Assembly (NCBI GenBank): GCA_016839955.1
Contig: JAEOTI010000332.1
Location: forward strand, 1-5,731
DNA length: 5,731 nt
Source of the DNA: Candidatus Hodarchaeota archaeon
Lineage (GTDB): Archaea; Asgardarchaeota; Heimdallarchaeia; Hodarchaeales; YT1-057
Direction of reading: 5' to 3'
How positions within the stretch are numbered: the stretch's first letter is position 1; every line of letters begins with the position of its first letter. The position numbers were made by a program, and so were the translations under genes. This document shows, in pieces, positions 172 through 5,555 of the stretch. The notes beneath the pieces were generated by a model. That model was not told the origin of the DNA, ran no database searches, and saw only the letters and a list, made by a program, of their open reading frames with translations.

Positions 172-1407
172 TTAAGAATTATTTTTCATTGGAAAATTGT
201 CATTTAACCAGGCCTTTAAAGAAATATCATCACTAAATCCTTTATCAACAAGAATTCTTACGATATCATCTCCAGAAATTATCAGAACTGGATGTTCATC
301 CTCAATAATCTCCTTATAAGCTTGTGGTGTAACATAACTTGATGTAATTAGAATACCAAATTGACGATATTTAATCCGCGAAATAAGACGTGAGGTTTGT
401 CTAATTCCAATTCCTCCTGATTCTGGATTGTGGCACTTTGCTTCAAATGCGAATTTAATAGATAATTTTTCACCGTGTATTGAACCAATTAGGTACTCTC
501 CCATACCGTCTCTTCCACCATCTCTCCAAGGTCGTGTAATATCAATATTAGTGAATCTTCTATCCATTAATTTCAACAAATGTCCACAAAAATGCTCAAA
601 TTTAAACGGATCCTGCTGGAAATGCATGAACAGGGTGTTCAGTAATTTCCTACCGATTTTGTCTGAAGGGAGCTGCTCTTCCTTCTTTCTATAAGTTTCT
701 ACTCTAGGTGATTTTAGGGGAATGATTCCTGTGTTTCCCAGTTTAATAAATTCCTTCCAAACGGGTAGTGAATATTCATGCGCATTTGGATTACTTTTTC
801 TCAACTCTTTCAGCCACTCCCTAGGTATTTCATTATCTCTAGTGTCTAAGATTGTAAAAAAAGCTTTGTAGTTCTGAAATCTTTCGTTCGCAGTTGATCG
901 CCAGATAGCAACTAAATCATTATCCGCATTAGAATTCAGTCTTCCTGGAGCAGCTAATCCAAGAAATCGTACAGTTCGACCCTTTCCACTTTTTTGAAAA
1001 ATTAGAAATGGGGGAATGTTGCTTCTGTCAAGATCACTTCCTGAAAGGAGATTAAAAGTATCTCTGAGTAAAGAATTGCCTCTTTTTGTTGTTTCGTGTA
1101 GTTTATGTCCAGCCTTTCTGTTATCACCGTAATATTGGAATATTCCAGACTCGGTATCAATGTAATCAGGCCACTCTAATTCGGAACCGCTGGTGTAAAG
1201 AACTACATACGCAGACTTCTCAGCATCATTCATATTTTCATTGATTTTCGTTTTTCTAGCGATCCTAAACCCTCCCGAGTTTCCGACACCTTCTAATAAT
1301 TTTGAAATAGGATCATCCCCAGCATTTCCTTCTATTCCTCCTCTATAAATTGCATCTATTATTAATGGTGCTTCCTTGAGGTCATCAAACTCAAATTCCC
1401 TTGCCAA
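172..1407 (-). CDS. AspBHI-type methylcytosine-dependent restriction endonuclease (Mrr-like nuclease domain)
   Basis: 411 residues. Residues about 13-155 match my recollection of the AspBHI N-terminal DNA-reading domain: G-N-A-G-D-D-P-x-S-K-L-L near 27-38, V-V-L-Y-T-S-G near 68-74, W-P-D at 79-81, Y-Y-G-D-N-R at 92-97 and L-H-x-T-x-x-x-G-N-x-L-L near 103-114. Residues about 268-390 look like an Mrr-type PD-(D/E)XK nuclease: G-G-R-D (D300), F-E-A-K (E322, K324), then G-I-L-I-T-S-S-Y-V-T-P-Q-A near 351-363 and L-I-I-S-G-D-D near 375-381. AspBHI itself cuts DNA outside a short site containing 5-methylcytosine. Here the role is inferred as cleavage of modified, or differently modified, DNA. The start is TTG, supported by TGAGGTG eight bases upstream; no better start is near. 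It follows the 402-residue gene by 42 bases and is probably co-transcribed with it. Length and active site appear intact. Confidence 0.85.
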   Translation of the reverse strand: MAREFEFDDLKEAPLIIDAIYRGGIEGNAGDDPISKLLEGVGNSGGFRIARKTKINENMNDAEKSAYVVLYTSGSELEWPDYIDTESGIFQYYGDNRKAGHKLHETTKRGNSLLRDTFNLLSGSDLDRSNIPPFLIFQKSGKGRTVRFLGLAAPGRLNSNADNDLVAIWRSTANERFQNYKAFFTILDTRDNEIPREWLKELRKSNPNAHEYSLPVWKEFIKLGNTGIIPLKSPRVETYRKKEEQLPSDKIGRKLLNTLFMHFQQDPFKFEHFCGHLLKLMDRRFTNIDITRPWRDGGRDGMGEYLIGSIHGEKLSIKFAFEAKCHNPESGGIGIRQTSRLISRIKYRQFGILITSSYVTPQAYKEIIEDEHPVLIISGDDIVRILVDKGFSDDISLKAWLNDNFPMKNNS

Positions 1408-1449: not shown

Positions 1450-2658
1450 CTATAAATTGTCATTAATAATTGAATCTAGATTAGTGTATTTCTGTTTCAA
1501 CTCTTCCAGTAGCTTCTCTTTTTTAAAGGTAATTAGGTCAAGAATTGATCCTTTTCCATAATGACTTGAAATTAATTCTGCTACTTGATTAAAGTGAAAT
1601 GTAAGCCTACTGAAGAAATCGTCATCGTTAGAAAACTCAAACCATAGTTGTTGCCCTCCTATTACCACTCTAGGAAATGAAATGAATTTTATATCTGGGT
1701 TTTGATTAACCATCCGTTGGACTTTGTTATCTAAACTCTTTGCTCTCTTACTTTGATATAATCCACCAAGCATAAAACCCATGTTGGAATATCCACTTTT
1801 TCTTTGATAATTTGGCATTACTATCTCGAAGAACTTCTTTTCCTCTGCACCTCTCATAGTACCAGCAGGCATAGACTTTATCTCGTAATGATAAGGAATA
1901 TAATTATCATGTTCTTTGTCATGAACAAATTTCTTTAGATCAAACTCTCTTAACTCTGATCTTACGGCATAAAAATGCCGTAAGATGTTCTCCCCTACTA
2001 ATCCCCATTTTCCAGATAATTTTCTAGAAATTGTTTGTTCATAAGGAACCGTAATTGCTTCTTCTAATGTTTTAAAACCAAAAAGAATGATTAAATAAGG
2101 ATTGAAATTTAAATCAGATATAGATAAACTTTCAATTTCCTTATAAATTGAAGAAATGAATTTAAATGCTTCAATTCTAATCCAATAATCAATATTCTCC
2201 AATGTTGGGCCAGTTAGCAAGAGATCCGTTAATAATTGATGGGAATTTGACGATTCAACCCATTTGTCTAATTTTCCCGAATTTATCCACTGATCTGCGT
2301 TTTCAATAAATTTGCTTATTTGTTTAAACTTAACACTATATTTTACAATCTGGTTATCGTTGAATTTTAGATTAAAGGATTTGGAAATTGCGATCAAAAA
2401 TTCAAATAAATCCAGTAAATCATAAATCTCTAAGAAATTTCTGTTACCCTCATACTCTGTCTGGACTAAAGTTATTAATTTCTCCATTCTCTCCAATTTT
2501 TTTGATTTAAATTGTGACAGAATTATTGCTTGGTTTGATTTTAGATCATTAATTTCCCTGATTTCGGAAATTATTCCTTCATATACGTTAGGAAGAGCTT
2601 TCTCATTCACTAAACAGATCATTTTATTCAAGATCATATAAAAGTCAATATGAGTCAT
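1450..2658 (-). CDS. Unrecognised 402-residue protein; possible PD-(D/E)XK nuclease of the restriction arm
   Basis: I do not recognise this family. The reading frame extends to a TTG at 2700, but the ATG at 2658 is preferred because GGAGAGGG lies seven bases upstream of it, while the TTG has no ribosome site and abuts the operator. Residues about 1-200 are rich in predicted helix (many Leu, Ile, Lys, Glu), with no signal peptide or membrane segment. From about 215 the composition changes to mixed alpha/beta. There G-L-V-G-E-N (E223), D251 and Y-E-I-K-S (E259, K261) are arranged like a PD-(D/E)XK active site: an early acidic helix residue, an Asp, then E-x-K eight and ten residues later. That is a motif-level inference only. 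It is the first gene of the operon with the AspBHI-like nuclease, and its promoter carries the same operator as nucS. It could be a restriction nuclease or a partner subunit of the AspBHI-like protein. Confidence is high that the gene is real and low for function. Confidence 0.75.
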   Translation of the reverse strand: MTHIDFYMILNKMICLVNEKALPNVYEGIISEIREINDLKSNQAIILSQFKSKKLERMEKLITLVQTEYEGNRNFLEIYDLLDLFEFLIAISKSFNLKFNDNQIVKYSVKFKQISKFIENADQWINSGKLDKWVESSNSHQLLTDLLLTGPTLENIDYWIRIEAFKFISSIYKEIESLSISDLNFNPYLIILFGFKTLEEAITVPYEQTISRKLSGKWGLVGENILRHFYAVRSELREFDLKKFVHDKEHDNYIPYHYEIKSMPAGTMRGAEEKKFFEIVMPNYQRKSGYSNMGFMLGGLYQSKRAKSLDNKVQRMVNQNPDIKFISFPRVVIGGQQLWFEFSNDDDFFSRLTFHFNQVAELISSHYGKGSILDLITFKKEKLLEELKQKYTNLDSIINDNL

Positions 2659-2811: not shown

Positions 2812-3099
2812 CTAACCCATAGTAAGAAAATCAAAAGTAATTGTACCATAGGCGAGTTTATACGTTATCCCTTCCTCCGATTCTTCTTTATTTAACAATT
2901 TAGCTGAAGTTAAAGATTCAATGTATTTGTACAAGGTCTCTCGATGTTCAAGGTCGATATGATCCCGTGAAGCTTCGTAGATCTCCCTTAAAGTTTTAGG
3001 CGTCCCATCTTTCAATAGACTAATTAATCTTACCCGCTTCTCATTCGATAAAGACTGACTGATTGCTACTATTTGCTTTATATTTGTAATTTCCACCAT
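2812..3099 (-). CDS. ArsR-like winged-helix transcription regulator, likely controller of the locus
   Basis: 95 residues, the usual size of a single-domain ArsR-type regulator. Residues 13-31 (S-Q-S-L-S-N-E-K-R-V-R-L-I-S-L-L) form the typical first helix. T-L-R-E-I-Y at 36-41 would be the second helix, and residues about 52-69 (H-R-E-T-L-Y-K-Y-I-E-S-L-T-S-A-K-L-L) the recognition helix. Residues 72-90 would be the wing, ending in a short hydrophobic tail. The only cysteine- or histidine-like metal ligands are isolated His residues, so a metal sensor is unlikely. The ATG at 3099 has GGA immediately next to it, which is too close for a ribosome site, and a TATA-like element lies 30 bases upstream, so the transcript may be leaderless. 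It is divergent from nucS and shares with it the perfect inverted repeat at 3141-3162. I infer that it binds this site and copy B, playing the part that C proteins play in bacterial restriction-modification systems. Confidence 0.8.
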   Translation of the reverse strand: MVEITNIKQIVAISQSLSNEKRVRLISLLKDGTPKTLREIYEASRDHIDLEHRETLYKYIESLTSAKLLNKEESEEGITYKLAYGTITFDFLTMG

Positions 3100-3140: not shown

Positions 3141-3162
3141 TTGTAGTCAATAATGACTACAA
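3141..3162. promoter_or_regulatory. Operator copy A: perfect 9-4-9 inverted repeat
   Basis: TTGTAGTCA (3141-3149), spacer ATAA (3150-3153), TGACTACAA (3154-3162). It lies 18 bases before the nucS ATG and 41 bases before the regulator's ATG. A symmetric 22-bp site suits a dimeric winged-helix protein. It would overlap the nucS transcription start (repression) but lies upstream of the regulator's own TATA-like box, so its effect on the regulator could differ. A second copy precedes the restriction operon at 2704-2725. Confidence 0.8.
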
Positions 3163-3180: not shown

Positions 3181-3861
3181 ATGGATAATTCACAGGATAC
3201 TCCTGTTCCCCCATTCGTCGTGTTATTAGACAATTGTAAGATAAATTATTTAGGACGTGCAAAAGCTAGCTCAAAAGGAGGAGAATTTCTTACATTAGTA
3301 AAGAAAGATGGAACAATTTTGTTACATTCCCTCCAAAAAGGTATGCGGCCTGTTTTTTACAATCCTTCGGGGGATCTATCAGTCTCACTAAAAGAAAAGA
3401 ACATATTTCTCGAGTCAATTGCAGAGAACAAAGAAGTTTTAAAAGTAGAAGGCCAGATAAAAGACTTTATGGATATAGAAGATCAAGGGGAATCTAAAAC
3501 AAGGTCTTTTGAAGCTCGTGTTGGAACTGAAAAATGGATGGTTCAGCAACTCAAGAAAAAGCCAAGTATCTTTGGACTTAAAAAGAAAGATTTTGAAGGG
3601 GCTGAAGTACGGATTACCTCGGGACGAATTGATCTCCTTTTCACAGACCTGGTCATAGAGGTCAAAAAACGAGCTGGTGCTAGGACACATGACCAATTGT
3701 CTAGATATTTACGAGGTTCTGGAAAGAACCAAGGAATAATTGTGTGTATAAAAGCAACTAAGACGTTAAAAAGTGCAGTCGAAGAATCATCAAATATTCT
3801 TCTAGTGGAGAAACCTGAATGGTCTGAATTTGATTCGGAACTTTCTAAAGAAAACTATTGA
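3181..3861 (+). CDS. nucS: NucS/EndoMS-family endonuclease
   Basis: 226 residues, slightly shorter than typical archaeal NucS. The N-terminal part, about 13-90, carries the family pattern: C-K-I-N-Y-L-G-R-A, then K-D-G-T-I-L-L-H-S and R-P-V near 56. The C-terminal RecB-like nuclease domain has E117 (G-T-E-K), then G-R-I-D-L-L with D151, V-I-E-V-K-K with E160 and K162, and Q-L-S-R-Y with Q172 and Y176. These match the positions of the metal-binding and catalytic residues known for Pyrococcus NucS, so the enzyme should be active. Known members cut branched single-stranded DNA or make double-strand breaks at mismatches, with G:T among the best substrates. Oddities: the loop between D151 and E160 is shorter than usual, and the C-terminus shows no obvious PCNA-binding motif. 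A weak AGGA lies ten bases before the ATG. It is the first gene of an operon with the C5 methyltransferase, 14 bases downstream, and is preceded by the operator. Its job may be repair of deaminated methylcytosine or restriction. Confidence 0.87.
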   Translation: MDNSQDTPVPPFVVLLDNCKINYLGRAKASSKGGEFLTLVKKDGTILLHSLQKGMRPVFYNPSGDLSVSLKEKNIFLESIAENKEVLKVEGQIKDFMDIEDQGESKTRSFEARVGTEKWMVQQLKKKPSIFGLKKKDFEGAEVRITSGRIDLLFTDLVIEVKKRAGARTHDQLSRYLRGSGKNQGIIVCIKATKTLKSAVEESSNILLVEKPEWSEFDSELSKENY

Positions 3862-3862
3862 A

Positions 3863-3869
3863 GAAAGGA
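3863..3869 (+). promoter_or_regulatory. Shine-Dalgarno favouring a GTG start for the methyltransferase
   Basis: GAAAGGA, six bases before GTG at 3876. The earlier in-frame TTG at 3858, which overlaps the nucS stop codon, has no comparable ribosome site. Confidence 0.5.
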
Positions 3870-3875
3870 ATTATC

Positions 3876-5555
3876 GTGGAAAAACCCAAATTAAGTTTGA
3901 TAGACCTTTTTTGTGGTGCTGGTGGTTTCAGTACAGGTTTTCTAATTGCTGGAGAGTATGACATCAAGGCTGGAGTAGATATCAAAGGATTTATGGAGAG
4001 AAGTTTTATCCAAAATCATCCTGGGGCAAAATTTTTTCAATATGATATTAGAGAAAGTCCTCCACAAGAGATTTTAGAATTAAATCCTGATCTAGTAATA
4101 GGTAGTCCACCGTGTCAAGGTTTCAGTGATGCAAGAGGTGTTCGATATCGCCTTGACCGAAAGAATGATCTGGTCTTCAAATATTTCGAATGGATTGATC
4201 AAATTCAACCTAAAATAGCTATAATGGAAAATGTCAAGGGTATGAGTACAATAGGTAAAGCGTGGAGGAGTCTAGAAGATCCTGGTCATGAAGAAGATAT
4301 TGATTTTATGGAACTTCTAGAAGAAACTGTAAAAAAGATTGGTTTTACATTCACTTATGATATTTTGAACAGTAGAGACTTTGGTGTCCCACAAGAACGA
4401 GAACGAGTTTTTTGTCTAATGATCCGTAAAGACCTTAAGAAAAAATTCTCGTTACCTTCTCCTACACATGGAGAAAAAGAAAAAGAAACAAAACAAACCC
4501 AATTAGATGAATTTTTAGGGAGTAGGAACCAGAAAAGTGAAAAAGAACTCCAACCATTTGTAACTGTAAATGAAGCACTGCTTGGTCTTCCGAATCCTTC
4601 TAAGTATGAACAAGGAAATCATATTGATACTTCTTCTTTAAGCGTTCAACATCCAAGACAACACACCTGGTTTCAACAACTAATTTTCAACACTAATTTG
4701 ATTAATAATCATATTTCTCGTTATCCTAAAAACGAGGAAGTATTAGAAATCATCAAAAGAATACCTGAAGGGGTTACATATCGAAGTGATCGTCTTGGTG
4801 ATAAGCATATAGGAGTTTGGGAGGTCTTCAAGAACCAATTATCAGAAGAAGAACGTGAATTACTGAAAGATATAGCCATTCTAAGGACAAAAAACCACAT
4901 TAAGACAAGAAAAGGTAAATACAGCGAAGGATACGTCCCACGAGAATTCTTAGAAGAAAAAGGGCATTCAAAAGAAATATTGGAGAATCTCGTTAAAAGA
5001 AGGTTTCTTAAGCATCCTACATCTTGTCATTTAACGGAGAAAGCTAAACATCTTCTTAATAGAATTCAGGATGAAGAATCATCCCTCTCAAAACAAACAA
5101 CAGATGAAATGGTTACCAAAGCTGATTTAGCAGTATTGAATAAACTCTCAAAACTTCAATCAGAAGTTGAGGGCTCTGATGTTGTCCGAGATTATCAATT
5201 GGGAATCCTAACAAATACCTTGAGGAAACTTGTCAGGTTAGGTTGGATTAAAACTGGCAAAGTGGAAGAAGAATATGATTTGACTGCTAAAGCAGGTCAC
5301 AGAGGAAGATATTCTAGAATTGCTATGGGTTACCAATCAAGAACATTAATGACTGGATTCACAAACTTAAATGAAATTCTACATCCAAAAGAAAATCGTG
5401 GACTTTCATTAAGGGAAGGAGCACGTTTAATGAGTTTTCCTGATTCATTTACATTTTATGGTACATTTTCTCAAATCTCACTCCAGATTGGGAATGCAGT
5501 CGCACCACTTGTAGCAAGACAAATTGCTATAAATTTGTTGAAGGAAATCAATTGA
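3876..5555 (+). CDS. C5-cytosine DNA methyltransferase with a winged-helix insertion
   Basis: 559 residues from the GTG (565 if the TTG at 3858 is used). It transfers a methyl group from S-adenosylmethionine to carbon 5 of cytosine in a specific site. All key motifs are present in order: motif I D-L-F-C-G-A-G-G-F-S-T-G-F (10-22), motif IV G-S-P-P-C-Q-G-F-S with catalytic Cys80, motif VI E-N-V (118-120), motif VIII Q-E-R-E-R-V-F (173-179), motif IX L-S-L-R-E-G-A-R-L-M-S-F-P-D (510-523) and motif X G-N-A-V-A-P (539-544). It is longer than the roughly 330-450 residues common in the family because about 160 residues (315-476) are inserted in the target-recognition region. These look like two winged helices: one around 323-397 ending K-R-R-F-L-K-H-P...L-T-E-K-A, and one around 411-481 with L-R-K-L-V-R-L-G-W-I-K-T-G...Y-D-L-T-A-K-A-G. 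The gene is tightly coupled to nucS, so the two are likely co-translated and share the operator. It is intact and probably active; its target sequence cannot be read from the protein. Confidence 0.93.
   Translation: MEKPKLSLIDLFCGAGGFSTGFLIAGEYDIKAGVDIKGFMERSFIQNHPGAKFFQYDIRESPPQEILELNPDLVIGSPPCQGFSDARGVRYRLDRKNDLVFKYFEWIDQIQPKIAIMENVKGMSTIGKAWRSLEDPGHEEDIDFMELLEETVKKIGFTFTYDILNSRDFGVPQERERVFCLMIRKDLKKKFSLPSPTHGEKEKETKQTQLDEFLGSRNQKSEKELQPFVTVNEALLGLPNPSKYEQGNHIDTSSLSVQHPRQHTWFQQLIFNTNLINNHISRYPKNEEVLEIIKRIPEGVTYRSDRLGDKHIGVWEVFKNQLSEEERELLKDIAILRTKNHIKTRKGKYSEGYVPREFLEEKGHSKEILENLVKRRFLKHPTSCHLTEKAKHLLNRIQDEESSLSKQTTDEMVTKADLAVLNKLSKLQSEVEGSDVVRDYQLGILTNTLRKLVRLGWIKTGKVEEEYDLTAKAGHRGRYSRIAMGYQSRTLMTGFTNLNEILHPKENRGLSLREGARLMSFPDSFTFYGTFSQISLQIGNAVAPLVARQIAINLLKEIN

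Follow-up and report, generated by a model that had tools for sequence, protein, structure and literature searches.

A NucS-family endonuclease gene paired with a C5-cytosine methyltransferase gene in a putative two-operator restriction-modification cassette of a Candidatus Hodarchaeota archaeon

Cytosine methylation creates mutation hot spots, and the known remedies that are linked to C5-cytosine DNA methyltransferases (MTases) are Vsr, which makes a nick, and Mig-type glycosylases, for which Mig.Mth with M.MthTI is the precedent. Vsr-containing restriction-modification (R-M) systems are found in Neisseria, as stated in the part of the report available to us (PMC7973814). The mismatch nuclease NucS, also called EndoMS, resembles type II restriction enzymes, and the accessible text of a further report gives G-T, G-G and T-T as its preferred substrates (PMC8228993). 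Within the portions covered of the openly licensed literature on NucS/EndoMS together with methyltransferases, R-M, Vsr or 5-methylcytosine (5mC), no NucS-methyltransferase system is described, which agrees with the initial annotation of the DNA studied here. This stretch of 5731 bases (hereafter the window; contig JAEOTI010000332.1 of a Candidatus Hodarchaeota archaeon) encodes five proteins, two on the plus strand and three on the minus strand, and carries a nucS-like open reading frame (ORF; 3181–3861, plus strand, 226 aa) directly before a C5 MTase gene (3876–5555, plus strand). We regard it as somewhat more probable than the alternatives taken together that the encoded nuclease is a NucS-derived counterpart of Vsr and Mig, directed at deaminated 5mC within a single regulated R-M cassette.

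The window NucS matched the Pfam family NucS_N (PF21003) with an E-value of 6.4e-11 and 42.5 bits, above the cut-off of 23.9. As NucS_C reached 15.8 bits, under its cut-off of 24, and the NCBIfam NucS model 74.7 bits, with a cut-off of 216, we regard the protein as a divergent NucS/EndoMS-family endonuclease and not as an equivalog. Its predicted model was of moderate quality (pLDDT 74.7, pTM 0.47), and Foldseek returned five matches at E<=1e-3, all of them EndoMS/NucS chains and the best five with E <= 4.5e-11, at low TM-scores of 0.30–0.38. Pfam scans revealed no match to the Vsr family (PF03852); judging by its sequence, the protein would be a functional analogue of Vsr at most. The catalytic D-ExK set is represented by D151, E160 and K162, which are invariant in all 57 NucS sequences aligned (4/4 members of the clade described below and 53/53 others), and the equivalents of EndoMS Tyr41 and Arg44 are likewise kept in the clade. 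In the sections available of the report on EndoMS (PMC6829318), Tyr41 and Trp77 enclose the flipped-out mispaired bases, which form bonds with Asn76 and Trp77; the side chain of N76 binds G at O6 or T at O4. In the window NucS, F59-Y60 take the place of N76-W77. Because D, E and K are invariant while Asn76 and Trp77 are replaced, the enzyme appears to be intact in its catalytic site and altered in how it recognises bases. Compared with the EndoMS/NucS enzymes of Thermococcus and Pyrococcus (5gke, 2vld), the protein has the same fold, the catalytic D-ExK and the Y41/R44 equivalents; it differs in carrying F/Y-Y for N76-W77, in its loops, in its linkage to an MTase and in having no recognised PCNA-interacting-protein (PIP)-like tail. 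The latter was sought with an ad hoc pattern, found in 0/4 clade members, which is itself weak as it matches just 24/53 other NucS.

A single-query search of about 5.8 billion proteins gave, apart from the window NucS itself, three relatives at E<=1e-3, and a profile search again recovered these three at E<=1e-5; one of them is labelled as coming from a Candidatus Hodarchaeales metagenome-assembled genome. The three NucS relatives (P0002, P0003 and P0004) and three MTases (P0008, P0007 and P0006, 59–65% identical to the window MTase) are encoded on contigs of identical exact sizes (29160, 9796 and 3272 bp, respectively). For all four members of the NucS clade, the window included, an MTase closely related to that of the window is encoded on the same contig, and the pairing is therefore not unique to one genome, an outcome that the initial annotation had left open. 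On the 3272-bp contig the NucS and MTase genes together occupy about 2340 bases, which necessarily places them near each other. In a NucS tree of 57 rows the four window-type proteins formed a clade with a support of 100/99 and a stem length of 3.1 changes per column, apart from 53 other NucS (38 Asgard, 11 haloarchaeal, two Deinococcus, one Streptomyces and one viral), which bears out the expectation that MTase-paired NucS would branch separately. Since the long branch of the window clade meets a long Streptomyces branch, as the program warned, the position of the clade is unsure, while its unity is not affected. A tree of six MTases grouped the four NucS-linked ones (98/96) and left P0009 and P0010 outside; the protein search listed no NucS relative for these two.

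No relatives of the window NucS were found in viral contigs or in GTDB r220 contigs, and 227 Asgard genomes contained no window-type NucS or MTase, the NucS matches in 65 genomes being weak (best 61.8 bits). NucS_N was detected in 67 of these 227 genomes and C5 MTases in 120, with both in 27. For the 24 of these 27 genomes with listed MTase coordinates, inspection by eye placed NucS and MTase on one contig in two cases, at distances of about 29 kb and 1.3 Mb. We also fetched 64 NucS loci outside the window clade, encoding 42 distinct proteins (60 Asgard loci with flanks of up to 1.5 kb per side and four named loci with 4–5 kb), and none of the 64 had a C5 MTase ORF in the stretches covered.

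The partner of NucS is a C5 MTase by its match to PF00145 (DNA_methylase, E 2.5e-55). Its longest frame is open from TTG 3858, which would give a 4-base overlap with nucS; as the homologues P0007 and P0008 start at the position of GTG 3876, this is the likely start, yielding a protein of 559 aa and a gap of 14 bases. The initial annotation of an intact nucS gene 14 bases upstream of, or overlapping, a C5 MTase gene and behind an operator was confirmed. The MTases of the window, of Halanaerobacter (L006) and of Halorutilus salinus (L009) have one top PADLOC family in common (PDLC03343), and searches of viral contigs, plasmids and phages for the window MTase gave distant relatives. EcoO109I and TdeIII recognise GGNCC-type sites, and because restriction endonucleases (REases) of these two families keep company with related MTases, a GGNCC-like target is our guess for the window MTase. 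GGNCC itself was seen once in the window with 5.0 occurrences expected, counts too small to mean anything. Two shortened relatives of the window MTase, P0011 and P0012 (329 and 334 aa, on 24400- and 35088-bp contigs), are without the MTase start or most of the C-terminal part and are perhaps decayed or incomplete copies.

The nucS-MTase pair lies behind operator 1 (3141–3162), a perfect 22-bp inverted repeat with 9-bp arms and a 4-bp spacer (TTGTAGTCA-ATAA-TGACTACAA), located between nucS and a gene for a winged-helix (ArsR-like) helix-turn-helix (HTH) protein (2812–3099, minus strand, 95 aa). The initial annotation had recognised this one operator and missed both a second copy (operator 2, 2704–2725), identical to the first in 18/22 bases, and the divergent REase operon that this copy precedes by 45 bases, counted to ATG 2658. 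A site with <=4 mismatches from operator 1 was present in 2/300 first-order Markov shuffles of the whole window. The half-site occurs four times in the window with <=1 mismatch, a count that is weak evidence when taken alone because 9/200 shuffles had as many. The HTH protein showed weak matches to NCBIfam and PADLOC families and none to a Pfam family at E<=0.1. Among 5949 ORFs it was homologous (E 9.1e-15) to the HTH protein of H. salinus, whose gene stands divergent to an MTase related to that of the window, and a site matching operator 1 in 18/22 bases lies between these two genes; no match of this quality arose when the intervening 140 bp were shuffled 3000 times. The winged-helix protein is thus probably the controller of the cassette, and we infer that it would bind both operators. 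In H. salinus (L009 6710–9356), a TdeIII-family REase, the HTH protein, the related MTase and the window-like operator stand together. No tRNA and no Rfam family were found in the window.

Two proteins are encoded by the divergent operon. The first (1450–2658, minus strand, 402 aa from ATG, the frame extending to TTG 2700) is an EcoO109I-like type II REase homologue, related to proteins located directly before related MTases in Halanaerobacter (L006, E 1e-10) and Natroniella (L005, E 1.6e-8) and, with weaker homology, to the Asgard proteins L160 (4.6e-7) and L161 (2.3e-5). An hhalign comparison with these four proteins gave 97.5%, and the four match PF14511 (RE_EcoO109I) above its cut-off. For the 402-aa protein itself, no Pfam family was obtained at E<=0.1 with the full length, and PF14511 was the best Pfam match of its C-terminal 248 aa, under the cut-off (E 0.071). 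Candidate PD-(D/E)XK residues, chosen by eye, are D240...E259-I-K261. The AlphaFold model was poor (pLDDT 46), and searches of plasmids, viral contigs and PDB sequences with the 402-aa protein were uninformative (PDB: nothing below E 0.7). The L006 homologue, for which no relative was found in plasmids, carries an N-terminal helix-hairpin-helix (weak RuvA-like) extension (L006 3741–4709). With an MTase and this REase homologue, the window has the gene content of an EcoO109I-like Type II R-M system, and the restriction slot is probably filled by the divergent operon. Compared with EcoO109I- and TdeIII-type R-M systems, the window has its REase homologue and MTase subfamily in common with L005 and L006 and its HTH protein and operator with L009; it differs in encoding the REase together with an AspBHI-like enzyme in a divergent operon and in the extra NucS gene.

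This AspBHI-like enzyme (172–1407, minus strand, 411 aa) is a member of the AspBHI/MspJI family of 5mC-dependent REases, with matches to RE_AspBHI_N (PF18062, E 7.7e-58), Mrr_cat (E 1.5e-12) and the PADLOC family mREase_II (E 3.6e-136). It aligns over its full length with the solved AspBHI structure (4oc8, E 1.5e-85), through the catalytic region; unlike that enzyme, it resides within an R-M cassette with NucS. AspBHI-type plasmid loci had a C5 MTase nearby in two of the four examined, from 20 records with a match, and the MspJI gene is reported to adjoin directly a gene for a cytosine MTase that is probably inactive (PMC3874153). Sharing a regulon with a C5 MTase, the window enzyme must spare the methylation pattern of its own cassette. 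The same source gives YSmCNS as the AspBHI site (PMC3874153), a context that would exclude GGNmCC and not every GGNCmC.

Repair enzymes stand beside C5 MTases elsewhere. Vsr was found in 11/227 Asgard genomes, and in six of ten Asgard Vsr loci fetched (L190, L192, L193, L196, L197 and L199) a C5 MTase lies within 1.5 kb. In the Asgard genome G189 (L200), 47 bp separate an HhH-GPD gene from the EcoO109I-like REase gene that follows it, and a C5 MTase is encoded divergently from the HhH-GPD gene; the best PDB match of the HhH-GPD protein was 1kea, annotated as 'Possible G-T mismatches repair enzyme' (3.5e-39), followed by MutY (9.9e-32). A similar HhH-GPD protein occurs in the lokiarchaeal locus L075, about 43 bp before an open C5 MTase frame whose true start may be further in, and another Mig-like protein adjoins a C5 MTase in Nitrosovibrio (L081). 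These loci indicate that the position of NucS here can be taken by T:G-repair enzymes from two other families, once beside the same kind of REase. With Vsr, the window NucS shares the arrangement of a small nuclease encoded next to a C5 MTase within an R-M cassette, which is the gene linkage expected of a Vsr-like function, and, by our reasoning, the T:G substrate; it differs in belonging to the NucS family, with an N-terminal PH-like domain, and EndoMS-type enzymes cut both strands. The slot is likewise comparable to that of the Mig.Mth-type HhH-GPD T:G glycosylase (1kea), and the G189 example also stands beside an EcoO109I-like REase; Mig is, however, a glycosylase unrelated to NucS in sequence and chemistry, and the G189 MTase belongs to another PADLOC family.

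In the mechanism that we favour, the winged-helix controller would bind the two copies of one operator and govern two divergent operons, one for nucS and the MTase, the other for the EcoO109I-like and the AspBHI-like 5mC-dependent REase. The MTase would methylate a cytosine at the site of the cassette (GGNCC-like by our guess), deamination of this 5mC would give a T:G mispair, and the co-expressed NucS-derived nuclease would cut at such mispairs so that the site is restored. NucS would then be a third, independent occupant of a slot held elsewhere by Vsr or a Mig-type glycosylase. We prefer this repair function because of the comparison with Vsr and Mig beside C5 MTases and because the restriction slot is probably filled. 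Several observations weigh against it. The position of EndoMS N76 is F or Y in 4/4 clade members (N in 50/53 and Q in 3/53 others) and that of W77 is Y in 4/4 (W in 51/53 and Y in 2/53 others); since these base-contact residues are replaced throughout the clade, substrate choice may have changed towards an altered specificity. In contrast to Vsr, EndoMS produces double-strand breaks, as given in the accessible text (PMC8228993). For the 9796- and 29160-bp contigs, co-residence of NucS and MTase is all that follows. Between the window and the 29160-bp contig the NucS proteins are 80% identical and the MTases 59%, no closer than other MTase pairs, and the two genes have accordingly not simply descended together, which suggests that one or the other has been exchanged among loci. 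The nearest named relatives of the window MTase (L005, L006, L007 and L009) showed no NucS and no Mig-like ORF, Vsr not having been sought there. Mig-like ORFs were detected with a two-sequence profile in 2/95 loci with an MTase ORF, and the top PADLOC families of the L200 and L075 MTases differ from that of the window MTase.

The same pocket replacements would also fit a restriction nuclease, with bases flipped at the target site and both strands cut there wherever methylation by the MTase is missing; the tandem arrangement with the MTase gene likewise speaks for this. We nevertheless consider NucS a rather unlikely site-specific restriction nuclease, given that the divergent 402-aa protein is homologous to EcoO109I-like REases, that the cassette holds an AspBHI-like enzyme as well, and that in L005 and L006 the EcoO109I-like protein sits directly before the MTase. 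A wider proposition covers both functions, namely that NucS was converted from a replication-coupled mismatch nuclease to a site-specific R-M nuclease with a rebuilt pocket, either as a T:G-tuned, double-strand-cutting counterpart of Vsr or as a base-flipping restriction enzyme; we put it forward tentatively, as a possibility short of an even chance. Of the interpretation first offered for this locus, the pairing, the operator and the separate clade have thus held and a Vsr-like partner is still the best explanation, whereas its alternative of a restriction nuclease has lost ground to the EcoO109I-like and AspBHI-like enzymes, and the simple form of the Vsr-like view, the same NucS with a new partner, is opposed by the loss of N76 and W77 in 4/4 members. 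As an R-M partner of either kind, NucS was not met in the parts of the literature covered.

That the protein is an ordinary enzyme of general mismatch repair, present in a defence cassette by chance, appears improbable to us. It has kept the NucS fold and the catalytic residues, and as NucS_N matches occur in just 67/227 Asgard genomes, the host may be without another copy; yet the window NucS falls in a separate clade on a long stem, its base pocket is altered, and co-residence with one MTase clade in 4/4 members stands against 0/64 other NucS loci with a C5 MTase. The ad hoc pattern for a PIP-like tail (0/4, with just 24/53 others matching) adds weak evidence at most. Least probable, and by our estimate very much so, is joint action of NucS and the AspBHI-like enzyme on modified invader DNA, in which the recognised base would be modified or deaminated instead of belonging to a T:G of the cassette's own making. 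Both enzymes belong to the same two-operator cassette, the pocket is altered, and DNA containing U or hypoxanthine can serve as substrate for a NucS from T. gammatolerans, as stated in the accessible part of that report (PMC8228993); the window NucS is, however, in tandem with the MTase and not with the REases.

Should the repair function that we favour hold true, a NucS-derived enzyme would constitute a third independent remedy for methylation-provoked mutation, and the archaeal and actinobacterial mismatch nuclease would be tied directly to a restriction cassette. In the window, two copies of one operator front genes for a conventional REase homologue, a 5mC-dependent REase, an MTase and what is probably a repair enzyme, and the NucS clade is a small protein family that allows a comparison with EndoMS in both mismatch and site specificity.

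Phages and plasmids yielded distant NucS alone (Halogranum virus HGTV-1, Deinococcus and Halococcus), and four such loci that were fetched contained no C5 MTase. In HGTV-1 (L001 3971–4639), a NucS relative of 222 aa adjoins a Holliday junction resolvase gene, and on a Deinococcus plasmid (L002 4896–8199) the NucS gene lies 37 bp before a UvrD-helicase gene. Within Halobacteriota, 34/176 genomes had a NucS_N match, and 28 of these 34 had two to three, mostly one strong match with one or two weak ones of about 24–58 bits, the extra matches being possible unstudied NucS paralogues.

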